Assembly (NCBI RefSeq): GCF_029962835.1
Contig: NC_080588.1
Coordinates: 12,418,001-12,482,000 of the forward strand
Direction: 5' to 3'
DNA: 64,000 nt
DNA from: Magnolia sinica
Lineage: Eukaryota > Streptophyta > Magnoliopsida > Magnoliales > Magnoliaceae
Positions 6,400-60,321 of the stretch are shown piece after piece. The notes under the pieces are model-generated. The model had not been told where the DNA came from and did no database searches. It was given only the letters and a program-made list of their open reading frames with translations. Numbering within the stretch: position 1 is the first letter of the stretch; each line of letters opens with the position of its first letter. The translations under genes were made by a program, and so were the position numbers.

Positions 6400-6775
6400 G
6401 TTCGATGACATCAAGCTACCATCGAAGGGCCTTTGAAGGCATCTAAGGCCCTCTTGATGGAATCGATCAAGAGCCAGACTGTCTAATAAGAAAATGACAT
6501 TTGTTCTGATTTTCTTGATGGCATCGTAGGTTAAGTTCAATGGCATCGAAGGACCCCTTGATGGCATCGATTGAGAATGAGAATTGTCTAACAAGAAAAA
6601 GACATTTATTTTGATTTTCTCGTTGTGATCGAGGACACCTTCGATGGCATCAAAGGTCGCCTTTGATGACATCAAAGGTCCATTGATGGAATCAAACAGA
6701 AAAGTCAGAAAGGTCTACTTCGATACCATCAAAGGTGCTTCGATGACATCAAAGCCACCTTCGATGGCATCAGTA
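6400..6775 (+). promoter_or_regulatory. Array of palindromic GATGNCATC boxes
   Basis: Boxes of the form CCTTCGATGGCATCAAAGG, close to a dyad, recur. Starts of TCGATG/TTGATG are at 6641, 6663 and 6683 (spacing 22, 20) and at 6720, 6740 and 6761 (spacing 20, 21). More degenerate boxes lie at 6410-6590. The array ends about 50 bp upstream of TATAAA. The sequence differs from the CGACYGGTCG boxes of the copia LTRs but the spacing and position match. Confidence 0.65.
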
Positions 6776-6821
6776 GAACAATTTTCTGCCCATTTTTTTT
6801 ACCATTGGAGCTCAAATTTTT

Positions 6822-6827: not shown

Positions 6828-7390
6828 GGGCATTTGGTTCTTGGACATTTTGATGGGTTTTTGTGCAATAGAAGCTTAAGTGAATCCATATTTATATCCA
6901 TCATCCCAATCCTCTATACCATTGAGTTCTACGCAATCTTCCTTGAGATTAACAATCTTATGAGGATTCCAACCTCCACCTTGAAGATGTGCTTGAACTC
7001 TTCCATTTTCTAAAAATTAGACTTAAGTTATCATGGCATACCATTGTCTAAATCTTATAGAAAATCCATCTAGGTGAATCCCCTAAGAAAAATAACTTCC
7101 CATTAGTTGTAGGAGATTTAACCAACCTCCCATCACCTTGGTCACCTCGAAGGAGCATCAAATGCAAGATGGTTGATCTTAGAGTTAAGGCCTTAACGAA
7201 GTAGTGACATCATGATTGGGGGAGCATCGAGGAGCTGATTGAAGCACAGGAGAGCGACGATGAAGCGACCCAAGACGGAGCAAATGGACTCAATCTAACA
7301 AGTAAGTTGTCATATTTAGAAGTCCATTTTTACTCTCTGTCCTTATGTAATATTGATGGTAAGAGTTTGTGATCCAAACTCGAAATAAGT

Positions 7391-7935
7391 TCTTGTGTAG
7401 GACCTTGACTCTTGTGTAGGGCCTAAATTCCTAGGTTCTTGTGTAAGACATTGGCTCTTATGTAAGGCTTAAATTCCTAGGTTTTTGTGTAGGACAATGA
7501 CTCTTGTTTAGGACCTTTACCAAATCCTTATGTAGGTCACCTGGAATGATTGTTTACATGTTAGTCTCCGTGGGAGCCTTTGGCAAGAGTAAACATAGGG
7601 CCTTGGGTTAAGACCGTGGTTGTTGGATAGCCTATAGAAAACCAACGAAAGTCTCTTGCCAGAGCCTCCGGCGGGAGTGTACGTAACTAGTTCTTGTGTA
7701 GGACGTTGGACCTTGTGTAGGGCCTAAATCTAGGTTCTTGTGTAGGACCTTGGCTGTTGTGTAGGGCTTAAAACTCCAAGTTCTTGTGTAGGACCTTAGC
7801 TTTTGTATAAGGCCTAAATTTTCAAGTTCTTATGTAGGACCTTCGTTGTTGTGTAGGACCTAAAACTCCAAGTTCTTATGTAAGACCTTGGCTCTTGTAT
7901 AGGGCCTAAAGTTTAGAATCCTTGTGTAGGGCTAT
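7391..7935 (+). repeat. Tandem CTTGTGTAGGACC / CTTGTGTAGGGCC repeats
   Basis: Alternating words TTCTTGTGTAGGACCTTG and GCTCTTGTGTAGGGCCTAAA recur about every 40-50 bp, interrupted at 7550-7690 by a different stretch. They are diverged by point changes. No reading frame of interest. Confidence 0.75.
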
Positions 7936-9315
7936 AAAGGGTTATAGGTTAACCTGATTTAAAATCTCCTATAATGAAATCCGGTACACTCATGGGTTGA
8001 GTGCGCCCGCCGTAAGTGAAGTTGGCAAGTAGTTAAACCATTATATATAATTGTTTTGGGATTGTCATTTGTGTACTTGTTTAATTATGATTGTGAGCTT
8101 GAATGCTTAATTATGTATGCATGATTAGATAAATGCTTAGTGTTAATAGTTAGCACATCCCACAGACGCATATACACTATTATAGACTAGTTGCTTACTT
8201 GCAAATCATTCGTAGTCTGTGTGATTGGACCCTCTATTGGCTTGGAAGTTGAAAAGGCCAAGATATATGCCCTAGAGTGGGGGGGGGGGGGGAGAATAGG
8301 ACTATGCCAAATTAAACTTTTAACAGCGGAAACTAAAGAATATGATAGCCAACAAAAGAAATGAAACAAATCACAATACAGAAATATAAAGCAACCTCAA
8401 ATTCAAGTCTTAAGAGGCTGATACAAATGTTGTTCTAAGGACAACCTTGCACCATAAAAACCAAGGGTTTATGGCAGGACAACCTTACTAGAACGATAAG
8501 TATCAATATCCCAAACTGAAGAGGAATAATAAAGGGAAATAGCAGAAAGTAAAGTCTAAACTATTACAACATTCCCACAATGCTTGAAATGTAAATATTA
8601 CAACATTTACATCCACACGTACATCCCACAATTCTGAATGATAAAAGATAGAAAATATTAAACAAACATTCAAACCACAAGACAAAGATTTATAGTGGTT
8701 CACCTATGTGTACACCAACTATTAAACAACAGCCACACAGCTACTTAACTCCTAATATCCTCACACAGGGGATATTAGCATTCACTATCAAAATAAGTTT
8801 CACAAGTTCTCCTAAAACCTTCACAATTGTGTCTTTTATATGGGCTTACACAATTCAAAAACCCCACTTTCTGAGTTTTCTTGCTCTCCTCAGATAACTA
8901 ACATAATGAGATTTTTCTGGCTTAACCTCAAACAAAACCAAAATATTTGAATTTACAATAAATGTAAAATACCTGGATTTCTCCTTTTTGTTGTAGCCCG
9001 GAAGAACCAATAAGAGTAGAAGTTCGAATGTGAAGTTCAATGTCCAATACTCACTTTGATATGGTTCTAAGTTCTAATTGATTTTAAATTAAACCAGTTG
9101 GGCTAGCTATATTTGATTTTGATTCCAAGAAGAAGGAATACAACAATTCCTCTTTTCAATTTAGATTGGAATAAAGAAACAAAATCAAATTAAATAAGCT
9201 AACAAAAGAGAATATTAAATAAGCACAATATAGCTTAAAAATAAACACAAACTTATCTCAAAGTGATGCCTTGATTTTACTTGAATTGAGTTATCAATCT
9301 CTGAAATTCGTCGTC

Positions 9316-9323
9316 TATTTATA
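9316..9323 (-). promoter_or_regulatory. TATA box of the SIRE 3' LTR
   Basis: TATAAATA on the - strand (GCATCTATAAATAGACG), directly downstream of the palindromic array. The same box is at 18148-18155 in the other LTR and 39956-39963 in the related solo LTR. Confidence 0.7.
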
Positions 9324-9341
9324 GATGCAAAAATCACGCCT

Positions 9342-9719
9342 ACGACTAGTCCTGAGTACTCCACAACTAGTCGTAGATGAAATGGATTTTTGAATTTTTA
9401 AGCGGGATTGAAACAGATGATTACACGACCGGTCGTAGGGTGTCTACGACTGGTCGTAGGACCTCTACGACTGGTCGTAGAAAACCCACGACTGGTGGTA
9501 GGACTTAAGGATTCGTTGTTGTAATTTGAGTCGAAGAACTAGGACCGGTCGAATGACTAGTTGACACTATTCACACAACCAGTCAAACAGAGTCCAGGAC
9601 TGGTCGTAGATGAACAGAAAATTCTTAATAATTGCAACAAACTTAGGACTGGTCCTAGATTTTCTAGGACTGGTCGAACCAATGCTAGGACTAGTCGAAT
9701 AAGGTCTAGGACTAGTCTT
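9342..9719 (-). promoter_or_regulatory. 21-bp-phased palindromic boxes in U3 (3' LTR)
   Basis: Boxes of 12 bp matching ACGACYGGTCGT or close variants start at 9342 and 9363; at 9425, 9446, 9467 and 9488; and, with AGGACYRGTC, at 9645, 9666, 9687 and 9708. Within each run the spacing is exactly 21 bp. Two boxes have the full 16-bp dyad-like form CTACGACTGGTCGTAG. The nearest box is about 20 bp upstream of the TATA box on the element's strand. Function is unknown; a binding site for a dimeric factor is an inference. Confidence 0.85.
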
Positions 9720-10186
9720 AGAACAGACCAAATACTTATAAAGTGATTTAATATGAATTATGTATTCAAAATGACTTACCTTAAGATCAATCTAAGGTTT
9801 ATCATACCTGAGATATGAAGTATGAATATTGAAACTTCATTCAATCAGATGAAGGTTGACCTTTGAACCTTATGAAGCTTAAGATCTCTACTTAATGTAG
9901 CTTGATCTTGAGATCTTCTACAGCTTGGAATGTACTTCATTTTTAAACATCATCTTTAGACTTGAACAAGCGCTCTTCTGATTGACGTAGTTTTAAACAT
10001 TGAAGCTTACAGAAGAGGATCAAGTACATGACCTTACATTTCTTGAAGTAGATCACCGTACTTGACATGAAGCATTGATGCAGTGTCTTGAACATCCATT
10101 CAACAACAAACTACACAAGACACATATAGAGGTTTTGGCACCACAAAATTTGACAACCAAAGGAGCATGAGACCATAGCACTTACA

Positions 10187-10847: not shown

Positions 10848-11780
10848 CTATCTCATCAAAATGTCATCCATGTTAATATTATCAGGAGGAAGATCACTAG
10901 CATCTTCTTCATTCCCAGCTTCAGCTCCACTTCCACTAACATCCACTTGGCCAGGAGCTGATCCCAATTTCATCTTGTTTATATTAGCATTGTTGAAAAT
11001 GAGATGATGGATAGGAGCCTCTCCAACAGGCATAACTACTAGCATATGATTAGCTAAAATAGTCATAAGATATGCAAACGGAATATCACTATGACCTGGA
11101 TAGAGACGAAACTGAATAATTGAATGACATATCAAGGAAGACAGACAAACTTTAGTACTAGAAATGACAAAATGCAAGACCCGAACCATAAAAGAAGTTA
11201 GTTCAGTTTTTTTACCTGAATGAGGATACATATTTGAAATAAAAATTCTATAGAGCATCCTGTATCTAGGTAACAAATACTTTGTAAGGAGTGCATTCCC
11301 TTTATGCGTCCATTGCACATTCATATTGCATAGATCACTAGTTAGCATACATTTCTCTGATTTAGAGGGTTTTTCAGTTCAAGTATGAATATAAATACGC
11401 TCATCATTAACAGGAATATCCATAAGGCTAGATATCAAATGACGATCTACATCAAATGACCCTTCTCTAGCATCAATCTTAAATGATAAATTTTCAGTAG
11501 AAAAGTCAGAAAGACATGCAAACATGGCTTGTGCAATAGATTGGAATGCTGGCCCACCCCAATATAAGATGTTATCCCATCCTACAGCTTGGAGTAAAGA
11601 TAGGATACCAAACTGAGCAATATGATTAAGATCAACTGGACGTTCGACAATGACATTTTGCATACGCAAATCCCACACATATGAGGGATCATCTTCGGGA
11701 GACCGAAGATGTCGCCGAGTTAAATTCGACCTGGAAGAGGAAGCACCACGTGTTGTTTTCTTTTTCCCTCTGGAGTCCAT
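10848..11780 (-). pseudogene. ORF3: putative plant transposon protein, one internal stop
   Basis: About 310 codons in one frame, interrupted once by TGA at about 11379-11381 (consistent with CGA to TGA). The chosen start gives a basic N-terminus MDSRGKKKTTRG. The body has hydrophobic helices and a stretch (LLTKYLLPR..RIFISNMYPHSG) that fits the poorly known putative plant transposon protein domain often found 3' of pol in long copia elements. An acidic tail (EAGNEEDASDLPPD) closes it. It is on the same strand as pol, where SIRE relatives carry an env-like or accessory ORF. I see no clear signal peptide in the chosen form. Role unknown. A box cluster and TATA-like sequence lie about 270 bp upstream. 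Confidence 0.65.
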
Positions 11781-12050
11781 TTGCAATAAGAAACTCAAGG
11801 AAACAAGAAGATACAAAGGATGTAGAGTGGGGTTTTGCTGGACCAGATTTTTCAAAATAAAATCCCAAAATTGCAATGAAAGATCAAATAGATTACTCTA
11901 AGAGTGAAAATGAAGTAATATAGACTAGAATCTACAAGAAAAACATAAATAACGCACTAACCTTAAATATCTAAGTTGGTGGCTTCGACTGGTCAGGCGT
12001 TGGCTCATTGGAGAGGGAATAGGAAATGAGGAAGATGAGATTTTTTTCAA

Positions 12051-12143
12051 AATTATAAAAGACCCAACGCGCTCCACGACTAGTCTTGAGCTGTCCTCAA
12101 CCGGTCATACCACGACTGGTCAAGTACAACCACGATTGGTCGT
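12051..12143 (-). promoter_or_regulatory. Internal palindromic box cluster with TATA-like sequence before ORF3
   Basis: ACGACTAGTC-, CAACCGGTCA-, ACGACTGGTC- and ACGATTGGTCGT-type boxes start at 12076, 12097, 12112 and 12132. On the - strand they are followed at once by TTTTATAATT (12060-12051) and a CT-rich leader, then ORF3. One more partial box is at 11987. This copies the order seen in the LTR U3. Internal promoter function is inference. Confidence 0.5.
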
Positions 12144-12242: not shown

Positions 12243-15200
12243 TCAATTTCGAATGTACATACCAAGATCAAATTTTAATTTATTAAACCTACTTTTGTCG
12301 AGCGATTTAGTGAAAATGTCAACAAGTTGAGTCTCAGTCGGAATGTATTCTAAAGGTATTATTTTTTCTTCCACTAATTCACGAATATAATGATACCTAA
12401 TGTCAATGTGCTTGGTACGTGAATGTTGGATTGGATTTTTTGAAATATTTATCACACTGGAATTATCCCAATATAATATCATTGATTCCTGTGCAATTCC
12501 ATAATCGCTTAACATACGTTTCATCCAAACAAGCTGAGTACATGCATTTCCTACTACGATGTATTCAGCCTCAGTAGTAGAAAGCGATATAGAACTTTAT
12601 TTCTTGTGGAACCAAGAAAATAAACAATTTTCAATATAAAATAACCACCACTAGTTGATTTCTTATCATCGATATTACCAGCCCAAGCAGCATCAGAGTA
12701 CCCAGCCAATTGAACACTAATATCATATGGATACCAGAGACCCAATTTAGTAGTACTTACAACATATCTCATAATCCGCTTGACCGCAGTTAGATGTGAC
12801 TCTTTAGGGTTAGACTGATATCTAGCGCAAATACCAACACTTAAAGCAATATCAGGTCTACTAGTAGTTAAATAAAGTAGACTACCAATCATACTTCTAT
12901 ATAGTCTAGGATCCACATCTTTACCTATAGAGTCCTTCGAGAGTCTTAAAGATGTACTCATAGGAGTATCAAAGTTCTTACCATTCTCAAATCCAAACCT
13001 TTTAATCAAGTTCAAGGCATAATTGGTTTGAGAAATAAAAATACCATCAGGTTGTTGTTTTACTTGCAACCCTAGGAAATAGTTTAATTCCCCAACTATG
13101 CTTATTTCGAACTTAGATTTCATTAAATTTGCAAACTCAACAGTCATGGTAGTACATGTTGATCCATAAATAATATCATCAACATAGATTTGAACCATTA
13201 AGATATCATCATTATGTTTCTTAACAAAGAGCGTCTTATCGACACTACCCATTTTAAAATTATGAATTAGTAAAAACTTAGTCAATTTTTCGTACCATGC
13301 CCTGGGAGCTTGTTTTAAACCGTAAAGAACCTTTTTAAGGCGATACACATGATCAGTGTTCTTAGGGTCTTCAAAACCCATTGGTTGTTCCACATACACT
13401 TCTTCATGTAGATCACCATTTAAGAAGGCACTTTTTACATCCATTTGATAAATTTTAAACTTCTTAAAGCATACAATGGATATAAAAAGTATGATTAACT
13501 CAAGACAAGCTACTGGGGCAAAGGTTTCATTATAATCAATGCCTTCTATTTGAGTGTACCCTTGTACAACCAGTCTAGCCATGTTTCGAATAATATTACC
13601 AAGTTCATCAGACTTATTTTTAAAAATCCACTTAGTTTCTGTAGTCTGTTTATCTTTAACTCTAGGAACTAGACACCAAACATCATTTATCACAAATTGG
13701 TTAAGCTCTTCTTACATCGCAACTATCTAGTTTTCGTCAGAAAGAACTTCTTTTACGTTAGCCGGTTCTATCTGGGATGTGAAGCACATGTAATTACATA
13801 TGTCTTCTAGTTGTCTACGAGTGCGCACACCAGTGAGAGGGTTTCCAAGAATCTGAGTAGTTGGATGATCTTTAACAGACTTCTGTTCAGTATTAGTTTG
13901 ATTTGATGAAGTATCTGGTTTGTCAATTAAAAGAACTTCATTATTATCTGAACTTGGGGTAGGTGTATTCAAATGATTGTCTATGACCACATTTATAAAT
14001 TCTTGAATCACACCAGTCCTTTTATTCAGTACGCGATATGCACGACTGTTTAAAAAATATCCTAAAAAGATTCCTTCATCACTTTTTGTGTCAAATTTTT
14101 CAAGATTTTCACAGTCACACAAAATATAGCACTTGCTGCCAAAAACTCGAAAGTATTTGACAGTAGGCTTCTTATCAAACTAAAGTTCATAAGTAGTTTT
14201 ATTATTAGATTTACATGCATAAACTCGGTTAATAATATAGCACACAGTATTTACGGCTTTAGCCCAAAGATTTAGGGAGCTTCATACTATTCAACATTAC
14301 ATTTCCTATTTCTTGAAACACTCTATTTTTTCTCTCCATAATTCCATTTTGTTGTGATGTTTTGGGAGCAAAGAATTCATGCGATATTCCCTGATTGCTA
14401 CAGAATTTCTCAAAACTGCTATTCTCAAATTCAGATCCATGATCACTACGAATTTTACTGACTTGAGAACCTTTTTCAGTTTGAATCCGCTTGAGCACTC
14501 TTTTTACTTCATCAAGGGTTTCTGATTTATCCCTTAAGAAGGCTATCCATGTGAATCTGGTATAATCATCCACGATCACCAGAATGTATTTTTTGCCACC
14601 TCAACTCTCCGACCTGGTTGGTCCTATAAGATCCATTTGAAGAAGTTCGAGTGATCTTGATGTGGCATTGGAGTTCACTTTCTTATGAGGGCTCCTTGTT
14701 TGTTTGCCAATCTGGCATTCGCCACATTTTGTCTACTTTATGTATTTTAGATAGACCTCTTATTAGTTCTTTTTTGCTCAATCTATATAGATTACACTAG
14801 TGTACTTGTCCAAGGCGTTTATGCCATAATTCCGTTTCATCGGTATGGACCATGTAACACAATTGATTATATAAGCTACCATCGCATATAATATAGCAGT
14901 TTTCATAAGTCCTGCGACCAGTTAATATAACAGAACCCTTTTTGTTTAAAATTTCACAACCTTGATTTGAAAATTTCACACTATGATTGTTATCGCATAT
15001 TTGAGATATGCTTAACAGGTTGTGTTTTAGTCCCTCCACATATAAAACATTCTTAAATAAGGGAAGATTATAGAGTTGAACCATACCTTGGCCAATAATC
15101 TTGCAGTTGCTACCATCACCAAATGTGACTGACCCATCAGTCGTATCTTTAAGATCGGTAAATATAGCCTTGTCGCATATCATATGCCTGGAGCATTCAC

Positions 15201-17067: not shown

Positions 17068-17079
17068 GCTCTGATACCA
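17068..17079 (-). other. Primer-binding site (tRNA-iMet)
   Basis: TGGTATCAGAGC on the - strand, two bases inside the 5' LTR, complementary to initiator-Met tRNA, the usual copia primer. Confidence 0.9.
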
Positions 17080-17081
17080 CT

Positions 17082-19032
17082 TAAAAAGGCCAAGCTATAT
17101 GTCCTAGCCGGAGGGGGGGGGGGTGAATAGGACTATGCCAAATTAAACTTTTAACAACGGAAACTAAAGAATATGATAGCCAACAAAAGAAATGAAACAA
17201 ATCACAATACAGAAATGTAAACTAACCTTAAATTCAAGTCTTGAGAGGCTGATACAAATGTTGTTCCAAGGACAACCTTGCACCATAAAAACCAAGGGTT
17301 TATGGCAGGACAACCTTACTAGAACGACAAGTATCAATATCCTAAACTGAAGAGGAATAATAAATGGAAATAGCAGAAAGTAATGTCTAAACTATTACAA
17401 CACTCCCACAATATTTGAAATGTAAATATTACAACATTCACATCCACACATACATCCCACAATTCTGAATGATAAAAGATAGAACATATTAAACGAACAT
17501 TCAAACCACAAGACACAAAGAATTATAATGGTTCGCTTATGTGTACACCAACTGTTAAATAATAGCCACACAGCTACTCCACTCCTAATATCCTCACACA
17601 GGGGATGTTAGCGTTCACTATCAAAATAGGTTTCACATGTTCAGCTAAAACCTTCACAATTGTGTCTTTTATATGGGCTTACACAATTCAAAAACCCCAC
17701 TTTCTGAGTTTTCTTGCTCTCCTTAGATAACCAACATAATGAGATTTTTCTGTCTTAACCTCAAACAAAACCAAAATAATTGAATTTACAATAAATGTAA
17801 AATACCTGGATTTCTCCTTTTGTTGTAGCCCGGAAGAACCAATTGGAGTAGAAGTTAGAATGTAAAGTTCAATGTCCAATACTCACTTTGATATGGTTTT
17901 AAGTTCTAATTGATTTTAAATTAAACCAGTTAGGCTAGCTATATTTGATTTTGATTCCAAGAAGAAGGAATACAACAATTCCTCTTTTCAATTTAGATTG
18001 GAATATAGAAACAAAATCAAATTAAATAAGCTAATGAAAGAGAATATTAAATAAACATAATGTAACTTAAAAATAAACACAAACTTATCTCAGAGTGATG
18101 CCTTGATTTTACTTGAATTGAGTTATCAATCTCTGAAATTCGTCGTCTATTTATAGATGCAAAAATCACGCCTACGACTGGTCCTGAGTACTCCACGACT
18201 GGTGGTAGATGAAACAGAGTTTTGAATTTTCAAGTGGGATTGAAACAGACGGTTACACGACCGGTCGTAGGGTGTCTACAACTGGTCGTAAGACCTCTAC
18301 GACTAGTCGTAGAAAACCCACGACTGATCGTAGGACTCAAGGATTCGTTGTTGTAGTTTGAGTCGAAGAACTAAGACTGGTCGAATGACTAGTCGACACT
18401 GTTCACATGACCGGTCAAATAGAGTCCATGACTGGTCGTAGATGAATAGAAAATTCTGAACAATTGCAACAAACTTAGGACGGGTTCTAAATTTTCTAGG
18501 ACTGGTTGAACCAGTACTAGGACTAGTCGAACAAGGTCCAGGACTAGTTATAGAACAGACCAAATACTTATAAAGTGATTTAATATGAATTATGTATTCA
18601 AAATAACCTACCCTAAGGTCAATCTAAGGTCTATCAGACCTAAGACATGAAGTATGAACATTGAAACTTCACTCAATCAGATGAAGGTTGACCTTTGAAC
18701 CTTATGAAGCTTAAGATCTCTACTTGATGTAACTTGATCTTAAGATCTTCTACAGCTTGGATTTGTCTTCTTAGAATGTACTTCATTTTTAAACATCATC
18801 TTTAGACTTGAACAAGCGCTCTTTTGATTGACGTAGTTCTGAACATTGAAGCTTACAGAAGAGGATCAAGTACATGACCTTGCATTTCTTGAAGTAGATC
18901 ACCGTACTTGACTTGAAGCATTGATGCAGTGTCTTGAACATCCATATAACAACAAACTACACAAGACACATATAGAGGTTTTGGCACCACAAAATTTGAC
19001 AACCAAAGGAGCATGAGACCATAACACTTACA
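17082..19032 (-). repeat. 5' LTR of the SIRE-type element
   Basis: 1,951 bp, matching 8250-10186 base for base apart from scattered substitutions and small indels. Its first bases on the + strand are TAAAAAGGCC, so the terminal TG has become TA. Palindromic boxes start at 18257, 18278, 18299 and 18320, again exactly 21 bp apart, upstream of the - strand TATA box at 18148-18155. Confidence 0.92.
18176..18560 (-). promoter_or_regulatory. 21-bp-phased palindromic boxes in U3 (5' LTR)
   Basis: Counterpart of the array at 9342-9719. The ACGACCGGTCGT box at 18257 is a perfect 12-bp dyad. Others carry one or two substitutions. As the 5' LTR, this copy would drive the element. Confidence 0.85.
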
Positions 19033-25705: not shown

Positions 25706-28700
25706 ATGGATAAGAGTTGGATTCATCTGCCAAGGTATCCATTTAGAAACTTCTCATTTTAGTTGTTGTGGCTTAGTGGTCAAGATGCGTTCTTTTGGCA
25801 TATCCTCTAGTTTCATTGTCTGATTTAGGGTCAGCGACGCATACTTAAATGGAGCTGCGAAATTTATAGATTTTGCATTTGCAAATGCAAGTAATAGAGG
25901 GAGGATCCGATGTCCATGTAAGAACTGTAACAATAACTTCTAGGTGTCTCGAGAAGCAGCATATGATCATATTGTGTGTGACGGATTTAATACAAGTTAC
26001 ACCTACTGGCGTTTCCATGGGGAGGTTACGTCTTCTTCCATGCCTACTACCACAAATGTCGTAGGCGATAATCCAGATCCACATGATGATATGCACGGAT
26101 TGTTACATGATGTGTTTGGTATTTCAAATCTAAATGGTGAAGAGAGTGATGCGGGCCACATGTCATATGGACCTACACAGGGACAGAATACTGAAGCACA
26201 ACAATTTTTCAAATTGGTAGAAGATGCTGATCAGGAATTATACCCAGGTTGTAAGAAATTCACTAAGCTTTCTTTCGTTGTGAAACTATATCACATAAAG
26301 TGCCTTAGTGGATGGAGTGATAAATCATTCACCATGTTACTTGAATTGTTGAAGGAGGCTCTTCCCGAGGGTGAAATGTTGCCAAAGTCTTTCTATGAAA
26401 CCAAGAAGATTATTGGGGAGTTAGGCCTCAGATATAACAAAATTGATGCATGTCCCAATGACTGTATGTTGTACTGGAAGGAGGCCATCAATGATCAATC
26501 ATGTGCTATATGTGGTACTTCTAGATGGAAAGTAGCTGAACATCAGTCAGATGATGAGGGATCTTCTTCATCTGCAAAGGATCGAAAAATTCCAGCTAAG
26601 ATATTGCGTCATTTTCCCTTGAAACCAAGGCTTCAAAGGTTGTTTATGTCATCAAAAATAGCTTCCTCTATGAAATGGCATGAAGTAGGACGCACCGATG
26701 ATGGAATATTAAGGCATCCTACTGATTCCCCAGCGTGGAAAACTTTTGACCACAACCACCCAAGTTTTTCTTCGGACGGTCGTAATGTTAGACTTGGGTT
26801 AGTAACTGACGGTTTCAATCCATTCAGGACAATGAGTATTGCTCATAGCACATGGCTTATTATTCTGATACCATATAACTTACCACCATGGATGTGTATG
26901 AAGCAACCTAATCTCATGTTGTCCTTACTTATTCCTGGCCCTTATGGACCTGGTAATGACATTGACGTGTATATGCAACCTTTGATAGATGAGTTAAAGG
27001 AATTGTGAGAGGTTGGCGCAGACACTTATGATGCTTCAAGCAATGAGACGTTTCGATTACGTGCGGCATTGTTGTGGACTATCAATGACTTCCCTACATA
27101 TGCAAACTTGTCTAGATGGAGCACTAAAGGATGTCTCGCTTGTCCTTGTTGTAATAAGGACACTTCGTCTAAATGGTTAAAATATGGTCGAAAGTTTTGT
27201 TATATGGGTCATCGTCGATTTTTAGAATATGATCATAAATTTAGAACTGATAGCAGATCCTTTGATGGCATGGAAGAATTTGGCGAGGCGCCAACTCCAT
27301 TATTTGGTTCTGATGTGTTGGCCCAGTTGCAGGGAATTAATGTCACCTTTGGGAAGACTGTAGGCAGTCATGAACATAAGAGAAGATGAGAAGACAATGA
27401 GGAAGAAAGATATAACTGGAAAAAGAAGAGCATTTTCTTTGATTTGCCGTATTGGGAGCATAATCTATTACGTCATAATTTGGACGTGATGCATATTGAA
27501 AAGAACGTATGTGATAATGTGCTTGCAACGCTGTTGAATATTGCAGGAAAACAAAGGATAGTATAAAGGCATGTCTTGACGTACAAGATATCGGTATAAG
27601 ACAAACATTACACCCAAAGCAGCTTTTATTTAACAAGACCTATTTGCCACCCGCATGCTTTACTATGTCACCAAGTGAGAAGGATGATTTTTGCAAAATC
27701 TTAAAGCGGGTGAAAGTTCCAGATGGTTATGCAGCCAATATTTCACATTGTGTGCATCTCAAAGAGCGTAAAATTTCAGGACTCAAGAGCCACGACTGTC
27801 ATATTATGATGCAGCAACTACTTCCAATTGCGATACGAACAACATTACCTAAGAACGTAACCTCAGTCTTACTTGAATTGAGCGGATTCTTTAGAGAATT
27901 ATGTTCCAAAGTTGGTCGAGTAAGAGACTTTGACTGATTGGAATCTCGAATTGTGTTAACACTTTGCCATTTAAAAAAGATCTTTCCACCAGCTTTTTTT
28001 GATATTATGGTGCATTTGACCATTCATTTAGCGGGCGAGGCAAAAATAGCTGGACCGGTATAATATCGATGGATGTACCCCATTGAAAGATGCGTGTTAA
28101 TGTTTAGAAATTAAAATTATTTGCCATGCTATGCTAGTCATGCTAATCGACCATATATTTTTAAACTTTTTAATATTTGTGATCACAGATATCTACTCAC
28201 ATTAAAGTCGTATGTGCGTAATAGAAGTTGGCCCGAGGGATCAATTGCAGAAGGGTACTTGGCAGAAGAATGCTTAACATTCTGCTCGAGGTACCTGCAT
28301 GGTATGGAGACAAGGTTCAATCGGCCTATACGGAATGATGACTATGGTAACACTATTATAGAAGAACAATCCTCTATTTTCCCACTAGTAGGTCGTGCAT
28401 TAGGGAAGTCTGAGGATTGTGTACTAGATAACGTTACATCCGCACAGGCACGTCGATATGTCTTGTTTAACTACCATGAACTCAGCCCATTTCTTGAGTA
28501 AGCCAACTATAAGACTTAATTTATACATAGATAAATTTACTCTCTTTTTTTTGCTAAAACTAATGACTTTTACAGAGAACATATGAATGTTATTAAGCGG
28601 ATGAATCGTCGTGCACGGTCAAGGGACATAGAATGCATTCATAATGATACATTTTATAAATGGTTTAGTGATCGTGTAAGTAGTCGATTTGATAAGTTTA

Positions 28701-29531
28701 AGGACGTATGCATGTTTTTTTTAATTTTTTATTATTCAAACATGTGCTTTTGAATGAATATTTTTGGTATCTAAATAGGTTGAACAGTTGCGCCATGAAA
28801 GGAATGAGTAGGTTTCAGAAGACCTTAGATGGCTAGCTCGTGGTCCTAGTATGGCAAGAAGATATAAAGGTTTTATTGTAAACGACTTCAGATTTCACAC
28901 CAAAGATCATGAGAAAAAAAGAAAAACTCAACATAGTGGAGTTGTTGTGACTGCAAAGACATCAAGCTTTGCAAGTGCCAATGACAGAAATCCCATTGCA
29001 GGAGATGTAACATACTATGGTGTATTGACGGACATCATAGAACTGGAATATTGTGGTACTCGGAAGGTTGTATTATTTAGGTGTGATTAGGTTGATGTTC
29101 GATCTCAAGGCAGGGGTGTTAAGAAGGATGGGTTGGGGTTCACGCTTGTGAATTTGAAACGATTATGCCATACAAGTCAACATTTGTCTGATGAACCATT
29201 TGTGTTTGCATCTCAAGCTGAGCAGGTGTTTTACGTACAAGACCTCATTGAGAAGGATTGGCACGTTATAGTGAGGACGAAACCTAGAGACTTATTTGAG
29301 ATGCATGGGCAAGAGTTTGCAGATGATGTTGATACATTCTTAGGCATGTTGCCCTGCGATGATCAATGTTTGGAGGACCCGAGTGATGACATTGTTAGCT
29401 GGGAAAGGACAGATGTCGATGGTACAACAGTTGTCACATGTTTACTACCCACCCAGCCGATGGTAGAAGAACAAATAGATGATACTGAGTTATCTGATCC
29501 CATTGGAGACGACATTTTGTACAATAATTGA
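25706..29531 (+). pseudogene. CACTA TNP2-like transposase, decayed
   Basis: Exon 1 (25706-25734) encodes MDKSWIHLPR and joins exon 2 at 25829. Together they give the transposase-associated N-terminal domain with the C-P-C..C-N-N cysteine set. Exon 2 (to about 28088) holds the TNP2 core, including LPYWEHN..LDVMHIEKNV around a catalytic Asp, and the SHDCHIMMQQLLP block. Exons at about 28187-28497, 28576-28705 and 28779-29531 carry the C-terminal DUF4218- and DUF4216-like parts ([13 protein letters not shown]). In-frame stops at about 25940 (W to TAG), 27006, 27388, 28808 (Q to TAG) and 29088 (W to TAG), a shift near 27560, and a damaged donor after 28088 (GT to AT) make it inactive. The product would bind CACTA ends and catalyse excision in the nucleus. 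Confidence 0.88.
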
Positions 29532-34950: not shown

Positions 34951-36377
34951 TGTCTCAGCTGCTCTCTCAAAACATTTAATTGGCCTAAATAATGTGGCTA
35001 CTGTAAATGGGACTTGAACATTCAAAGAGTGAAACAGATAACGACAGGAAGAATTAAGAACTGCTTACTGAACCAAGAACTGTAGGACCTACTGAACCAG
35101 TAACTGCAGGACTTACTGAACCAAGAACTGCTGTAAATGGCCTGCTGATTCTTCTTGAAGTTAACTTTGCACAAAAGTATTTCCTTCATCGATTCCCATG
35201 AAGAGTTGTTGCTCTGAGAAGAATCAAGAACTGCTTTATATGAAGGATTTGATACTGCAGTAGCAGCTAATACACTAACCAGTTCACCAGCAAGAGAACT
35301 TCCAGGACTATTTTCGTCCACCTGTCCATACTCAAATTGAATTATAGAATTGCTGCAGAGGTTTCTCACTGTCCCATCATAACAGAATGACATCTCTAAG
35401 TGTGGCCATTAGATTTTTAAACAAAGTTCCTGGTTTAGTAAGTCCTCTGGAAGAACGGTCAACACTTCCCTGGATGATATGGAATGGACCAACTCTTCAT
35501 AGGGGGTCAGACCTTGAAAAAAGGAGCTCTTAACTAACCCAAATGCCTCAGAAGGATAGTCAACACCATTAACAGAATACTTAATTTGGAAGTGGAAACT
35601 CATATCCTCAACCAAACGCCTTGAATAAAACTTCCCTCGGTCATAAAGTTGAAGCCCCAAAAAGCCAAGTTGTTGAACAACCTTACTGATAGCTAAATCA
35701 TTTTTAGAATCTATCAAATTACCCAAAGCAGATAACTTTAGAATATGAGTCACGATAGGCAGTTTTACAGTTTTCAGGTAGCTTTCCACTTGCAACTCTA
35801 CAAGTTTATTTTAATTTGATCTCAAATGAAGCAGCAAAGGTGATATGTCCTAAATCTTCTTCTTTATATCTTCAGTAACAGCCTTGGGAATGTCAAAATC
35901 ATTCAAGCCAACACTATATCCTTCTAAAAAGAGAATCTCCATCAGCAATGGCTGCAACCTATTAAAGAACTTAACAGCCTCTTCTGTTCCCTTCTTGTCA
36001 AGAACATAAGTAACAATCTCTGTGAATGATGACTGCAGTAAATCTCTATTGAAATCAATCCTCACCGTTTCACTTTTACTGATCAAATGCCTCTCCCCAA
36101 AGCAGTCAAAAAATGCAGGTAAAGCACTATGTACTATTTGCAAAACAGTCCACAGAGGACCTGTACAGTGAGCCTTAAGCAAAGCAGGTTCTAGTAAAAC
36201 TGGTGAAACACACATAGCCAATTGTTGTGCAGTTGCTTTGTTCAAGAAAAAAGTCTTAAACATGAGTTTAAGTGACAATAAAGAATCATGCACTAGTTAT
36301 AAATTTAGACTACCACTATGAGAACTATGGATTTGCTTTTCAACACTAAACAGCTCCAAAACTTCTGCCTTTGCTAT
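34951..36377 (-). pseudogene. NRPE1: Captured NRPE1 fragment (Pol V largest subunit), antisense to the transposase genes
   Basis: From 36377 downward the - strand encodes IAKAEVLELFSVEKQ, DSLLSLKLM, NKATAQQLAM, WTVLQIVHSALP, VVQQLGFLGLQL, RKFYSR-like, TPYEELVHSIS and, ending at about 35149, TVRNLCSNSIIQFEYG, GVLAATA-like and ILLCKVNF. These are in the order and spacing of the NRPE1 catalytic region after the metal-binding NADFDGD motif, which is absent. A separate later NRPE1 segment (NVQVPFTVATL..PIKCFERAAE) follows at about 35022-34951. It therefore joins two non-adjacent parts. Stops at about 36300 (CAA to TAA), 35853 and 35813, plus two frameshifts near 35380-35450, rule out function. NRPD1 (Pol IV) is the alternative; the VLDSS..NSSW block favours NRPE1. 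Recognised from memory of the family. Confidence 0.85.
35061..35132 (+). repeat. Filler repeats at the NRPE1 junction
   Basis: Three imperfect copies of ACTTACTGAACCAAGAACTG lie between the two NRPE1 segments. AGGACTTACTGAACCAAGAACT (22 nt) matches the sense strand of the NRPE1 fragment at about 35412-35436 at 20 of 22 bases, in inverted orientation. This suggests template-copied filler made during end-joining. Confidence 0.6.
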
Positions 36378-37721: not shown

Positions 37722-38755
37722 TTAACTGTTACGAATATGAATGAACTAAATCAATCATATTTATCATTTACATTCTGACTGTTGAGTTTTCTTATTTCTT
37801 CAGGTTTTGGATGCTTCTTGTACATGCCTGACTAGCAACGAAATCCACTTCAAGAATATTAGGTGATGACTTTTGTTTGCTTTTCTTTCTAAACTTCTTC
37901 ATACTTGGTGTGTTTTTCTTACTGGTTTTCTTTTACAAGGCCAATTTTTGTTTCCTTTGTTGCTTATGATTTGCAATACCTGCCAGCAAGCAATTGAGTA
38001 TGAGTTGTATTGTGGTGCTTATAAGCCTTGTAGCACCGTATAGTTTGATACAATGACAATTTATTAATGTGATTGAAGTTCCAATTGAAGGTAAATCATT
38101 AAGAAAAAAGGAAATGAAAAAAAGAAAGAAAAGAGAAGAAAAGTTCCAATTGATACAATGACAATTTTTTTTTACTATGACACTTTCCCAACTATAGAGG
38201 TGACTTGTGAAGCTGATTATCCTTTTATTTTCTTGTTTATCATGGGCCTTGATTGTTTATAAAGGTTTAAGTCTTCAACAAATAGAGGGCCTAGTTCTGT
38301 AGCACTCTACAGCTCCAAGAGGTATAATCTCAATGATGTGCCACTTACCAAATTAGCTATGCTTCTCAGCCAATTGCAGGGAAACTTTCAAGGGAGGAAT
38401 TTAAGCTCATTGCAAGAAAAGGGCTTACATCACACATAGTGGACATGTGATCATGGCCAGTGAGGATTGGTGCTGTAGACATTTGCCAGAAGATGTGGCT
38501 AGGAAAGGAAGACATTTATAGTTTGTTTTGAAAACTTTAAATAGACTATTAATTGTTTTGTTGATATTGTGCTAATTGTTGTCTTGATGAATGTTAGATT
38601 TTTTGGGTAATTCAAATTCTTGTCATTCAATCATAGGTTTTTGATAGTTAGATCGATGGAGATTTGATTGTAGGACAGCAATTACAGGAAAGGATTAGTC
38701 AGAATCAACAGGAATTTGTAAAGAATCAACAGGAATTTCTATTTATCGGCACTTT
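37722..38755. other. CACTA interior, possible captured exons, unrecognised
   Basis: A stretch at 37803-37861 is bounded by TTTCTTCAG and a GT and encodes VLDASCTCLTSNEIHFKNIR. Another open stretch is at 38265-38430. Neither matches a family I know. The splice-like borders beside three other captured exons make capture plausible only. Confidence 0.3.
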
Positions 38756-40722
38756 TGAAAAGGCCTAGCTATATGTCCTAGAGGGGGGGTGAATAGGACA
38801 ATGCCAAATAAAACTTATAACAGCGGAATTAAAAAGAATATGATAGCCAAAGTAAATCACAATGCAGGAAAGTAAAACAGCCTCAAAATTTAGATCTTGA
38901 GAAGTTGATACAAATGTTGTTCTAAGGACAACCTTACACCAAAAACCAGAGTTTATGGTAGGACAACCTTATTTCTAGAAAGATCTTTGTATCAAATCTC
39001 AAACCAAAGAGGAATACAGAAATAAATACAAACTGAATTGAAATAAATTGTAATCACAAATGTATTGTTCTAGGGACAGCCATACACCATAAAAATGGCA
39101 GGGCAACCTTGCTGGAACAACTTTTAAAGGAAATTGAATATCAAGCTGATAAAGGAATAGCAGAAAATAAATTCTAAACTATTACAAAATTCTCACAATG
39201 CTTGAATTAAATGATTACAACATTCACCACCATACATACATCCCACAAAAGAATAATTAAAGATCAGAAGTATAAATCATTCAACCACAACACAAGGGAT
39301 TATAGTGGTTCGCCTGTGTGTTCACCAACTGTTAAACAACAGCCACACAGAATGCTACTCCACTCCTAATATCCTCACACAGGGGATATTAGCGTTCACT
39401 AACAAAATAGATTTTCCCAGCTTCACCCAAAACCTTTGCAATTGTGTCTTTGTCTGTGGGCTTACATAATTAAAAAACCCCACTTCTGAGTTTTCCTGGC
39501 TCTCCTCAGATAACCAATACAACAAGATTTTTCTGGCAAATCTTGAAAGAAACCAAAACAGAAAGGAATTTACAATCAAATGTAAAATACCTGATTATCT
39601 CCTTCGTTGTAGCAGCCCGGTAGAACCAAATCAGAGTAGATGATTGAATGTCCAAGTTCAATGTCCAGTCCTCAATTACAATGGTTATAATTCTAATAGA
39701 TTTTAGATTAAACCAAATAGGGCTTGCCTTAATTGATTTTGATTCCAAAGAAAGGGAATAACAATTCCTCTTATCAAATTAGATTGGAATAGCAGAAACA
39801 AAATCAATTAAATAAAGCTAAGGAAAAGGAATATTGAATAAGCACACTTAGCTTAGATGGAGCACAGAATTATCTCTCAGAAGTTCGACGAAGATTGGCT
39901 TGAGTGGATTACTTAATTTGATGATTTCTTCTGAGATTCATGCCCTATTTATAGGTGAGCAGATCGCGTCTTCGACTGGTCTAGGGAGCTCTTCGACTAG
40001 TTGAAGCAAAACAGATATTTGAAAAATCAGGCACGATAAGCTTTGACCGTTCTTCGACTGGTCGTAGGTCACCTTCGACTGGTCGAAGAACGTGAAAACA
40101 TCGCTGGATTTTGAGTCGAAGATTTTCGACTGGTCGAAGATGCAGTCGACACTGTTCCTTGGTCGAACAGATTCCTGGACTAGTCGAAGCCTAACAGATT
40201 TTATCCGAAATTTGTAACAAACTCACGACTGATTGAGAAATTTCTTAGACTGGTCGAAGCAACTCTAGGACTAGTCGAAGAACAGACCAAACTTATGTAA
40301 AATAAACATTCAATTTATGTATCTAAAATGATCTACTTCTAAGGTCAACCTAAGGTCAGTCAAACCTCAACCATGAAGTAAGGACATTGAAACATTAGGA
40401 ACTAGTGACCTTGAAGTATGAGCCTTGAAGTCTTGATGTAGTTCAATCTTGAAATCTTGATGTAGCTCAATCTTGAAAGTGTCTTGAGTTCTTTACAAAC
40501 TGCCTTGTACTCTTCTTGAAGTCTTGCAGCTTGAGTCTTGTCTTGTGAGCAGTTCTTACATTCAAGATTGATCCTTGTACTTGTGAGCTTTGCTTGTTGT
40601 GAGCTTAGCTTGTTTATGAATGTTGATCCTTGAGAGAGCTTCACTTATGCAAGTTATGTATAATAGTGATTTTGGCACCACAAATTTGACAACAGACAGG
40701 GATATAAACTATAGCACTTACA
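38756..40722 (-). mobile_element. SIRE-type solo LTR, 1,967 bp, TSD ACTTT
   Basis: Homologous end to end to the LTRs at 8250-10186 and 17082-19032 (TGAAAAGGCC .. CACTTACA) but clearly diverged. ACTTT flanks it at 38751-38755 and 40723-40727. It has inserted in the CACTA right subterminal region. Palindromic boxes precede its - strand TATA box (39956-39963), but here the arms read TTCGACTGGTCGAAG. Confidence 0.92.
39972..40278 (-). promoter_or_regulatory. 21-bp-phased palindromic boxes, TCGA variant
   Basis: TCGACT boxes start at 39972 and 39993; 40054 and 40075; and related boxes at 40225, 40246 and 40267. Each run is spaced exactly 21 bp. Both arms differ from the ACGAC/GTCGT boxes of the other SIRE LTRs in a complementary way, so dyad symmetry is kept. 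Confidence 0.85.
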
Positions 40723-43230: not shown

Positions 43231-43810
43231 TGTTGGGGATTTGGGCTGCGAAACCACACAGATCTAGATCTAGGATAGCAATACAATGGCACTAAGCAAT
43301 CACAGAAGAACACAAAGTTTTAACGTAGAAAACCCTTGCAGGAAAAAACTATGGCACAAAGCGACAGAAATCCACTATGAAATAAAAATTACAAGAGAAA
43401 GGACTTACCCTATTCGAACAACCTCAAATCTCACCCTTGTTACACCCTTTGATAACCCTAGAACCCTTTAGAAAGCTTTTTCATCCTTTAGAATAGCCCT
43501 AGGGACCCTTATTTATAGTTTTAGGAAACTCCCTTCTTCATCCTTATTGTGAAAGGACTCAAATCCGCAATCCGTACAAATTCGGAAATGAATCTGTGTA
43601 ACTATGACTGGTCGTAGGATGGCCACAACTGGTCGTAGGACCCCTACGACCGGTCGAGAAATCCCTACGACCGGTCGTGAATCCCGAACACCAATGAAGA
43701 GAGCTCCCTAGACTTTAAGTCGAGCGGGCTATGACTGGTCGAGACGACCCCTACGACCGGTCGAGCAATCCTTACGACCGGCCGCAGGCGGTAAAGACTT
43801 TCTGACAACA
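43231..43810 (-). repeat. 3' LTR of the Tork-type element
   Basis: 580 bp from TGTTGGGGATTTGGG to TTTCTGACAACA on the + strand. About ten differences from the 5' LTR in the first ~185 aligned bases by eye. TATA box on the - strand at 43510-43517. Confidence 0.93.
43604..43785 (-). promoter_or_regulatory. 21-bp-phased palindromic boxes, Tork 3' LTR
   Basis: Boxes start at 43604, 43625, 43646 and 43667 (spacing exactly 21) and at 43731, 43753 and 43774. The 43667 copy is a perfect ACGACCGGTCGT. They lie upstream of the TATA box on the element's strand, as in the SIRE LTRs. Confidence 0.88.
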
Positions 43811-43919: not shown

Positions 43920-44512
43920 TTATGCCATCGCCAAGCCCAAAGAAGTTGCACAAAACTTGAACTTCTCTGTAGGAACGACCTTGGTGAGCATGTCTGCTGG
44001 ATTCACGCTGGTGTGAAAGTTTTCCAATGTGACGCCTCCTTCCTCAAGCACTTGTCTGATAAAGTGGTGACGAACATCAATGTGTTTAGTACGTGAGTAA
44101 TAAACAGAATTTTTAGCCAAATTGATAGCGCTCTCGCTGTCACAGTTAACCGACATGGCCTCCTACTGAAATCTTAACTAATTTATCATGCCTCTGAGCC
44201 AAACACCTTCTTTAAACGCTTCCGTCACTGCCATATATTCTGCTTCGGTCGTGGAAAGAGCCACCACTGACTGAAGCTTCGACATCCAATTGATTGCTTC
44301 ACCCGATAGTACAAACGAGTATCCTGAAGTAGACTTCCTGAAATCTATACTGCCTGCATCGTCAGAATCCACATACCCTACCAACTTTGTCCCTGTTTTT
44401 TCAAAAGTTAAGACGTAGTCTTTCATACCTCGAATGTATCGAAGTAGCCATTTCACTGCCTCCTAATGTTGCTTGATGGGGTTTGTATTATATCTGCTCA
44501 CAACACCAACTG
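43920..44512 (-). pseudogene. Tork RNase H and pol C-terminus, distal part
   Basis: Continues the pol frame cut by the inserted LTR. It encodes VSRYNTNPIKQH, a stop near 44462 (Q or W to TAG), then [44 protein letters not shown] and, after a stop near 44165, SVNCDSESAINLAKNS, RTKHIDVRHHFIR and NPADMLTKVVP. These are RNase H blocks of the Tnt1 type. The insertion lies within the run of residues just before VSRY. Confidence 0.9.
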
Positions 44513-47450: not shown

Positions 47451-47800
47451 GCGTATTGGGGCCCACTTGTTATGTATATAAGGCCATTGGTGCAGCCCAT
47501 GTAATGTGACCGACTTAATATATACGAGGCCCATTGGTGCGGCCCGTGGACGCAGTCCACTTGCTGTATTTGAGGCCCATTGTGATATGTTTGGGGCCCA
47601 TGGGTTGAGACCCACTGAGATGTATTTAAGGCCCAGATATTAGGCCAGGTGTGATATATATATAGGTCCATGTGAGTGGCCCATCTGCGACCCATTGTGA
47701 TATATTTATGGCCTGTTGGTGCGGCCCATTGATATAGCCCATGGTGATTGTATGAGACCTTTGTGTGAGACCATGGAACCACTATATATTCGGCCCTATG
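47430..47800 (+). repeat. Degenerate GGCCCATTGTGATGTATTT array
   Basis: Short units GGCCCATTG.GATATATTTGAGG repeat about every 30-45 bp. Similar units reappear at 48240-48390. No gene. Confidence 0.65.
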
Positions 47801-50226: not shown

Positions 50227-51610
50227 CCTGTGAAATATCCGGTCTTGTACAGACCATGGCATACATTAAGCTATCAACCACATTTGAATAGGGCACATGA
50301 GATATAACTTACTTTTCCTCATTAGATTTAGGACATTTTTCTGAGGAAAGCTTGAAGTGAGCCGCGTGGGGAACGCTTACCGACTTTGCCTGATCCATCC
50401 CATACTTGATCAATACCTTTTCAAGGTATTCTTCCTGTGATAACCAAAGCCTCATCCTCTTCTTATCTCTATGAATATCTATACCGAGAACCCTTTTTGC
50501 AGCCCCCAGATCTTTCATCTCGAATGTCCCTGATAACTGAGTCTTTAGTACGTTGATTTCAGACATATCATGACAGGGGATCAACATATCATCAACATAC
50601 AGTACTTGGATGATGAATTTTCCATTACTCAGTGTCTTGTAATAGACATAGTGATCGTATTCACTCCGAGTTAATTTCTGACTCACCATAAAAGAATTAA
50701 ATTTTTTATACCACTGCCTAGGCGACTGTTTCACGTCATACAACAACCTCATTAACCTGTAAACCTTTTTCTCTACACCTTTAAATTCGTAGCCCTCTAG
50801 TTGCTTCATGTAGATCTGCTCTTCCAATTCCTCATGCAGGAATGCAGTCTTCACATCCATCTGTTCTAGTTTGAGATCGTATCGGGCAACCAGTGCCAAC
50901 ATGAATCTGATAGATACCTGCTTAACTACCGTCGTGAATATCTCTGTGAAGTCGATTGCTTCTCTCTGAGTATAACCCTTTGCTATCAACCTTGCTTTGT
51001 ATCTATCATGTTTCCTTTTGAATAACCACTTGCATCTGATCGCTTTTCGGCCCACAGGAAGCTCCACCAGCTCCCATGTGTGATTTTTGTGCAACGAGTC
51101 CATCTCATCATCCATCGCCGCCTTCCACTTTTTTACATCAGGCTCATTAAGAGCCTCCTGAATAGTAGACAGGTCCCCCTCGTCTATAATGAGGGCATAT
51201 GCAATATTAGAGTCGTCCCTGTATCTTATCGATAACCTGCAATCACGCGGTGGGTTCCTTCTCACAGGTGGCTGCTCCACCTGATCTTGTACCTCTGTCT
51301 TCACATCTGTCTCTACCTGAGTATCATTTGTGTCAATCTAGACGTCTACGATCACCCTTCCTGGTTCATTTTGCTCCTCTTGATCATTCTTACAAAATAG
51401 AGAGATTTCATCGAATTTGACGTCACGGCTAGTGATGACCTTGCGTGTGACCTTGTTGAATAACCTGTAACCTTTCACACCAATGCCATAGCCAACAAAG
51501 ATATACTTTTTGGCACTATGGTTTATCTTATCTCTCTCAACTGACGGTACATGAGAGTAAACCTCACAACTAAATATGCGTAGATCTGCGTAGTCGAGTT
51601 TCTGACCACT
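50227..51610 (-). pseudogene. Tork reverse transcriptase and integrase C-terminus
   Basis: The - strand from 51304 downward encodes the RT with KCKWLFKRK, IDFTEIF, MDVKTAFLHE, QSPRQWYKKF, VLYVDDMLIP (YVDD active site intact), KDLGAAKRVLGI and LWLSQEEYLEK. It then breaks near 50309 and resumes with YSNVVDSLMYAMVCTRPDIS up to the insertion. From 51610 to 51305 is the integrase C-terminal region (YIFVGYGIGVKGYRL). Stops near 51608 and 51340 interrupt it. It would synthesise cDNA in the cytoplasmic particle. Not functional overall. Confidence 0.9.
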
Positions 51611-53551: not shown

Positions 53552-53553
53552 TT

Positions 53554-54132
53554 GTTGGGGATTTGGGCTGGGAAACCACATAGATCTAGATCTATGATAG
53601 CAATACAATGACACTAAGCAATCACAGAAGAACACAAAGTTTTAACATGGAAAACCCTTGCAGGAAAAAACCATGGTACAAAGCGACAGAAATCCACTAT
53701 GAAATAGAAATTACAAGAGAAAGGACTTACCCGATTCGAACAACCTCAAATCTCACCCTTGTTACACCCTTTGATAACCCTAGAACCCTTTAGAAAGCTT
53801 TTTCATCCTTTAGAATAGCCCTAGGGACCCTTATTTATAGTTTTAGGAAACTCCCTTCCTCATCCTTGTTGCGAAAGGACTCAAATTCGCAATCCACACA
53901 AATTTAAAAATGAATTTATGTAACTACGACTGGTCGTAGGATGGCCACGACTAGTCATAGGACCCATATGACCGATCGAGAAGTCCCTACGATCGGTCGT
54001 GAATCCTGGACACCAAAGAAGAGAGCTCCCCGGACTTTGAGTCGAGCGGGCTACAACCGGTCGAGACGACCCCAACGACCGGTCGAGAAATCCCTACGAC
54101 CGGTCCTAGGCGGTGAAGACTTTCTGACAACT
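53554..54132 (-). repeat. 5' LTR of the Tork-type element
   Basis: 579 bp, homologous to 43231-43810. The final base is T rather than A. TATA box (- strand) at 53832-53839. Palindromic boxes start at 53926, 53947, 53968 and 53989, exactly 21 bp apart. Confidence 0.93.
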
Positions 54133-60320: not shown

Positions 60321-60321
60321 C

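Follow-up and report, generated by a model that had tools for sequence, protein, structure and literature searches.

Short repeated enhancer units near the promoter are familiar from viruses, as in the 21-bp Tax-responsive repeats of HTLV-1 and the 21-bp repeats of SV40. In plants, the tobacco retrotransposon Tnt1 carries tandemly repeated BII boxes. These boxes lie in the U3 region of this Tork-lineage element and bind defence-induced DNA-binding factors (available part of PMC3316501), and U3 is described as evolving as a module (available part of PMC1838419). The palindromic boxes analysed here resemble BII in layout, being repeated in U3 upstream of a TATA box; they differ from the Tnt1 arrangement in being palindromes of 12-14 bp, mostly 21 bp apart, that occur across families with 30% identical reverse transcriptases and are repeated inside an element. 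The HTLV-1 and SV40 repeats belong to other hosts and act with other proteins, and are likened to these boxes by description and not by sequence.

The maize element Grande is a gypsy element, and the spumavirus transactivator Tas acts on both promoters of its virus. Grande holds an extra open reading frame (ORF), gene23, between pol and the 3' LTR, which is read antisense from a promoter of its own (available part of PMC7264820), and spumavirus transcription has two starting points, one in the LTR and one at an internal promoter, alongside a transactivator ORF (available part of PMC7828637). Element E1, described below, is similar to Grande, as far as the extracts of that source go, in having an extra ORF with a candidate promoter of its own between pol and the 3' LTR, and unlike it in being a copia element with a sense ORF and with boxes resembling those of its own U3. 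It may resemble the spumavirus layout, as given in the extracts, in that a box array and TATA-like and initiator-like motifs, which could form a second promoter, precede an accessory ORF; unlike in spumaviruses, the boxes also occur in families without the ORF, and an activator role is only hypothetical. No description of a palindromic module shared by distant copia families and present again inside an element was found in the literature searched, and the parts of the sources available to us do not mention a sense promoter with the element's own U3 boxes. Seven box strings searched for in papers gave matches in PMC6447185, PMC5784242 and PMC7867169, which, judged by title and listing, are off topic.

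The window, that is the whole stretch of DNA analysed, comprises 64,000 nt of Magnolia sinica (assembly GCF_029962835.1, contig NC_080588.1, positions 12,418,001-12,482,000 of the forward strand). The array, its enrichment, its placement, the constraint on it and the non-box sequence shared between families were computed here. Together they point to a palindromic-array switch that distant copia families have in common, kept by selection and probably read by a protein. Such a switch would be a testable cis-element that ties together how several copia families of one genome are transcribed, and would show by what route regulation becomes common to distant retrotransposons.

Elements and box arrays of the window

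Two elements of the window, E1 and E2, both on the minus strand, have the hallmarks of Ty1/copia elements: a pair of LTRs, a 5-bp target site duplication (TSD), a primer-binding site (PBS), an RVT_2 reverse transcriptase (RT) and copia gag/integrase domains. The LTRs of E1 are about 1.94-1.95 kb long. Its 3' LTR (8250..10186, about 1.94 kb, with U3 at the high-coordinate end) is 93% identical to the 5' LTR (17081..19032), whose low end is approximate and adjoins the PBS TGGTATCAGAGC at about 17068-17079; the TSD, GAAGT/GAAGC, matches at 4/5 bases. The RT (12554..13711) is accompanied by a Retrotran_gag_2 domain, and E1 is presumably of the SIRE lineage, a search for RT homologues having returned no lineage label. 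E2 has LTRs of 580 bp (3' LTR 43231..43810, 92% identical to the 5' LTR, 53553..54132), a TSD, CCACG, that matches at 5/5 bases, an RT at 50309..51337 and rve and gag_pre-integrs domains; it is presumably of the Tork lineage, the label given in an earlier, sequence-only reading of this DNA. The two RTs are 30% identical over 271 columns. About 5.7 kb of the E2 interior (approximately 44512-50219) is absent from other E2 copies (L006, L011, L015) and is therefore probably a nested insertion. A further copia family, E4 (L007, L009, L010), has an RT 47-48% identical to that of E2 and 32-36% identical to that of E1; its array is ordered like that of E2, with spacers partly diverged, and its LTR resembles that of E2 around the TATA box. 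Outside these elements, plus-strand matches to Transposase_21, DUF4218 and DUF4216 (25944-29531) are presumably the remains of a CACTA-type transposon, and a minus-strand segment (35850-36296) similar to RNA polymerase Rpb1 domain 3 may come from an exon of a host gene or be a gene fragment.

The sequence-only reading had placed boxes at 20 starts in the four LTRs, and all 20 hold boxes with 0-3 mismatches to ACGACNGGTCGT, far above chance. In the E1 3' LTR they form a four-box cluster in 21-bp steps at 9425..9499 (starts 9425, 9446, 9467 and 9488) and a TATA-distal one at 9645..9719 (9645, 9666, 9687 and 9708). Further boxes were found in this U3: a TATA-proximal pair at 9342..9374 (9342 and 9363), with its nearest core 28 bp from the TATA box TATAAATA (9316..9323), and three boxes between the clusters at 9541..9607 (9541, 9575 and 9596). 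The E1 5' LTR repeats the array at 18174..18551 (18174, 18195, 18257, 18278, 18299 and 18320, with more decayed boxes up to 18551), upstream of a TATA box at 18148-18155. In the E2 3' LTR the boxes (43604..43785) lie upstream of a TATA box at 43510-43517, with four at 21 bp (43604-43678) and three newly found ones (43731, 43753 and 43774, spaced 22 and 21 bp, ending at 43785); in the 5' LTR, four boxes in 21-bp steps (53926-54000) are joined by another three (54053-54107), together spanning 53926..54107. Two arrays are also new, one in a diverged E1-type LTR, E3 (minus strand, about 38740-40420), with TTCGACTGGTCGAA-type boxes at 39972..40278 and a TATA box at 39946-39953, the other inside E1 at 11985-12143.

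Depending on the mismatches allowed, each of the four named LTRs holds 1-8 box pairs spaced 21 bp. Shuffling the dinucleotides 200 times for each LTR and setting gave a maximum of 0 such pairs, except for a maximum of 1 in one setting of the E1 5' LTR; in this check of periodicity, all four LTRs far surpassed their shuffles in boxes and in 21-bp pairs. Tandem Repeats Finder called 21-bp units (22 in single rows) in all four. Across the whole window, when up to 3 mismatches are allowed, 27 box pairs have a spacing of 21 bp, 1 of 20 and 3 of 22. Exact 8-bp cores, GACYRGTC, number 39, where base composition predicts about 2. The arrays described account for 37 of these 39 cores. The earlier view that all boxes lie 21 bp apart needs correction: between clusters the distances are 62, 53, 49 and 34 bp in E1 and 64 bp in E2, and the internal array has steps of 20/15/20 or 20/15/21. 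The two cores outside the arrays, at 1123 and 1166, belong to two TGACTAGTCA palindromes 43 bp apart that lie outside recognised LTRs.

Occurrence, structure and conservation of the boxes

The boxes were compared within one genome, the 1.839-Gb source assembly. The perfect box ACGACCGGTCGT occurs 3356 times, against 35 for its reversal, and two perfect ACGACYRGTCGT boxes separated by a gap of 0-30 (12-42 bp apart) occur at 7429 places, against 0 for the reversal. Box pairs are thus strongly enriched over the reversal, with 21 bp favoured: 3649 of the 7429 pairs (49%) are exactly 21 bp apart, against 3% under an even spread over the 31 gaps. Among the first 50 listed pairs the spacings were 15 (6 pairs), 20 (13), 21 (19), 35 (3), 36 (1) and 42 bp (8), and no others. 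The listing of ACGACCGGTCGT places gave the first 50 of the 3356, all on one contig (C1). Fetching in listing order covered 38 of these, from the top, and gave 35 regions, with loci L001-L004 left out of the counts. By blastn, and among the matches listed, 34 of the 35 belong to three copia families, namely long-LTR E1, 580-bp-LTR E2, and E4, and consist of 7 E1-type LTRs, 14 E1 internal arrays and 13 E2- or E4-type LTRs; the remaining region, L035, has its box in unassigned sequence. The copies share descent and are counted as related copies, without correction for relatedness, so that the counts do not represent independent events. Translations of the array (a query joined from three stretches) searched against other species yielded 205 candidates, none at E up to 10, and the viral contigs searched gave no match.

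Each site is a symmetric, degenerate 14-mer, YWSGACY|RGTCSWR. Flank preferences in 341 array boxes, which played no part in finding the boxes, are symmetric, with S, then A/T, then a pyrimidine on the left and a purine on the right. Covariation between the half-sites of these boxes was absent at 5 of 7 position pairs (z -1.2 to 1.4) and present to some degree at the outermost Y/R pair (z 4.7) and the S pair (z 2.2), relatedness being uncontrolled; in the 55 boxes of the window arrays, none was found at five flank pairs (lowest p 0.098). We read the symmetry of the 14-mer and the sparse covariation as the signature of a dimeric protein site and not of paired RNA.

Distance to the TATA box is strongly conserved. 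In 13 of 14 E1-type LTRs, TATAAAT and the core closest to it are separated by 28 bp (47 bp in L037), and in all 18 E2/E4-type LTRs that hold TATAAAT by 96-98 bp, so that an array just upstream of the TATA box, as first described, applies to E1 and not to E2, whose nearest core is 96 bp away. Exact spacing between boxes was kept in E2/E4 at 0.73-0.81, modestly better than in random stretches of equal length (0.56-0.73); E1 kept it at 0.83-0.92 (random stretches 0.82-0.90) and the internal array at 0.67-0.75 (random stretches 0.73-0.75). The proposal that all boxes face one side of the helix was not borne out, spacing being no better kept than in random stretches in E1 and the internal array. 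Helical phasing was accordingly dropped as a constraint, since spacing exceeds random only in E2/E4, and modestly, and the internal array contains a 15-bp step.

Constraint on the cores was measured in three alignments with one copy per locus (E2/E4 U3, n=10; E1 U3, n=10; internal array, n=8), the copies being drawn from the window and the first fetched batch of loci, with the 15 loci of the second batch outside. Cores showed a pairwise identity of 0.82-0.90, inter-box spacers 0.63-0.68 and columns outside 0.69-0.73, cores thus being the most and spacers the least conserved class. Because core columns were found with the motif, one reference served to label them and the other copies to score them, which lowers this bias and leaves some of it; for 9 of ten choices of reference the cores beat all 300 random 8-column placements, the exception being L013 (0.824 against a maximum of 0.827). 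With every perfect seed box blanked, core identity was 0.79-0.88, still above the spacers (0.63-0.68) and the outside columns. Within LTR pairs the relation is reversed. With boxes labelled from one LTR per pair, the E1 pair differs at 20/168 box positions and 100/1769 positions elsewhere, and the E2 pair at 13/84 and 35/495, a box divergence about twice that of the rest. This faster divergence rules out a low mutation rate as the cause of core conservation. Transitions make up 15/20 (E1) and 12/13 (E2) of the differences inside boxes and 76/100 and 26/35 of those outside, a share that fits decay of methylated CpG without proving it. Cores are kept between copies yet decay quickly once inserted, which argues for selection on replicating copies: the boxes appear to be mutable yet retained in replicating lineages, and the pairing of fast decay with conservation across families is a sign that they matter for the success of the element.

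The internal array of E1 and its extra ORF

A second box array (11985..12143, minus strand; cores at 12134, 12114, 12099, 12078 and 11987) lies in E1 after pol and before the extra ORF. The internal cluster ends in a core that lies 28 bp before a TATA-like TATAAT (12052..12057), downstream of which comes an initiator-like CTCATTTC whose A is at about 12027. The plant initiator consensus is YTCANTYY. Internal arrays are also present in other E1-type copies, with spacings of 20, 15 and 20 in 11 of 17, the remainder showing one-base spacing differences or lost boxes. A TATA-like motif lies +26 to +28 from the last internal core in 14/17 copies (4 TATAA, 10 TTWAAWT), a weak motif given how few hold TATAA, and a YTCANTYY match at +56 to +58 in 15/17, the TTWAAWT and initiator patterns having been picked after the copies had been viewed. 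Among the LTRs, 5/14 E1-type and 0/18 E2/E4 copies matched the initiator +35 or +36 after the TATA box, and the initiator is thus no general mark of these promoters. No internal box array was found in 6 E2/E4 interiors, where single exact cores in L007 and L011 sit at LTR edges.

The extra ORF follows pol on the minus strand (10848..11780, ATG at 11780-11778). It is PF20167-like, its pieces in E1 matching that family below the Pfam cut-off, and an in-frame stop at about 11379 breaks the window copy; the ORF is also present in L008, L019-L021 and L023. Differences at third codon positions outnumber those at second positions in 16/16 aligned pairs, at least 2-fold in 14 (16 of the 21 pairs of seven stretches aligned with a score of at least 150), a pattern indicative of purifying selection. 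The ORF has a basic start in L019 and an acidic stretch in a homologue. The AlphaFold model of a homologue (mean pLDDT 36) is unusable, with a long helix near the end at very low confidence. A database search gave three hits, none named as plant; one of them lies on a 492-base contig under the label Mycobacterium kansasii, and we take it to be contamination. The internal array probably drives a separate sense transcript of the extra ORF, and it allows an incisive test of the idea that a plant LTR element can express an accessory gene from a sense promoter of its own.

A candidate enhancer module and its rivals

The sequence-only reading had described the E1 and E2 LTRs as otherwise dissimilar, and blastn agrees outside the arrays. 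The window four-box clusters of E1 and E2 align, unmasked, at 84% over 74 columns, mostly box. Spacer identity as proof of exchange was rejected and this alignment dropped, the window pair (spacer identity 0.67) being the best of 40 cross-family cluster pairs, with four cores at exact 21-bp steps, whose mean, 0.41, is like the 0.38 and 0.46 of non-corresponding clusters. With boxes masked and TATA removed, E1 and E2/E4 U3s are nevertheless not wholly dissimilar: they align with a mean score of 21.0, above all 100 shuffles (18.0, sd 0.39) and a reversed control (18.3). The best-matching part is a collinear CGACTCAAA(A/G)TCCAGCGA-type segment that takes up a comparable position among the boxes. 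In each set 8/10 copies match a 9-base degenerate pattern describing this segment; it comes 18-21 bp downstream of a core in 15/16 (47 bp in L015), with 33-46 bp left to the following core. The 11 bases that follow, which are independent of the search for the pattern, match between families at a mean of 6.4/11, against 2.3-4.0 at three sites of the pattern in the window outside these LTRs. Of the whole-length LTR homology that the sequence-only reading had named as refuting its view, only a part was thus detected, in the U3 module and not in R/U5, where blastn gave nothing above the array matches. In masked U3, E2 and L009 score 88, against a cross-family mean of 24.5; E2 and E4, closer in RT, are also closer in masked U3, which makes old descent as possible as exchange.

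We consider it likely that a factor binding as a symmetric dimer recognises the boxes, that the array is an enhancer of the copia promoters and that the module is homologous across families. Each 14-bp site would consist of two inverted half-sites, so that one sequence-specific factor could bind YWSGACYRGTCSWR as a symmetric dimer; clusters of 3-4 sites, mostly 21 bp apart and at a set distance upstream of the TATA box, would recruit it, and the recruited factor would drive transcription of the element, with the array acting as an enhancer. The module may descend from a common LTR of great age or have been handed on by exchange of U3, and in E1 a second array with core-promoter-like sequence would drive a separate sense transcript of the extra ORF. 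Protein binding, its dimeric mode, enhancer activity and the internal promoter are all inferred from the sequence patterns. No known factor was matched to the boxes; the factor is most likely a host protein, since families without the extra ORF retain the boxes. Of the earlier claim of a shared promoter module for a dimeric factor, the sharing between distinct copia families and the symmetry of the 14-mer stand, and dimer binding is a prediction.

Other readings account for parts of this evidence. If the two lineages had independently gained the same boxes for the same host factor, cross-family spacer identity would be expected to look as it does (0.41, like that of non-corresponding clusters); the further collinear non-box sequence that the U3s have in common, which lifts the box-masked alignment above all 100 shuffles through the CGACTCAAA(A/G)TCCAGCGA segment, disfavours such convergence, and we hold it to be quite improbable. 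Common descent or exchange fits better, so that of the two origins first proposed, convergence or exchange, the latter is favoured, together with common descent. A neutral minisatellite, in which functionless 21-bp units spread through slippage or conversion, seems to us the least credible explanation. It accords with tandem units of one length, with exact spacing that is under no clear constraint and with the many Retand elements reported to carry tandem repeats between pol and the 3' LTR (available part of PMC11963269), but core and spacer should then evolve alike, whereas cores reach 0.79-0.88 and spacers 0.63-0.68; the quick decay of cores after insertion and the fixed placement before the TATA box also oppose it. 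Pairing at the RNA level is very unlikely as well. Boxes of the internal array and of the 3' U3 would pair within or between RNAs for dimerisation, export or packaging, each palindrome being able to pair with any other copy and both arrays falling in the 3' portion of the RNA; two of the half-site pairs do exceed shuffles (z 4.7 for the outermost Y/R, z 2.2 for the S pair), but the other five do not (z -1.2 to 1.4), the flank pairs reach a lowest p of 0.098, and a fixed distance to the TATA box is not expected of an RNA signal.

The extra ORF itself could encode the factor, in a spumavirus-like circuit in which it is a DNA-binding activator on the boxes of the LTR and of the internal promoter, and which E2 and E4, without the ORF, exploit. 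The same boxes precede both E1 transcription units, with the core 26-28 bp from the TATA-like motif inside and 28 bp from the TATA box in the LTR, the ORF is under purifying selection and has a basic start, with an acidic stretch in a homologue, and the 6 E2/E4 interiors have no internal array. This circuit, a bold alternative to a host factor, is nonetheless unlikely: the model (mean pLDDT 36) yields no DNA-binding fold, the PF20167 matches fall below the Pfam cut-off, the ORF is tied to the boxes by position alone, and E2 and E4 retain the boxes without it.

The window also contains other repeats. A second, unrelated palindromic array on the plus strand (6404-6777) consists of nine GATGNNATC sites of TTCGATGGCATCAAA type, some spaced 20-22 bp and others 43-83 bp, with TATAAAG downstream at 6822. 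The genome holds 517 copies of TTTGATGGCATCAAA, counting both strands, and 2 of its reversal. This array is possibly a further LTR promoter built in the same way. A satellite-like array of 21/42-bp units of TTCATTTCACGGTCAATTCCA type, distinct from the box type, lies at 60108-61050, and a tandem repeat of TTCTTGTGTAGGACCT type, with a period of 46 (two halves of about 23), at 7389-7930.
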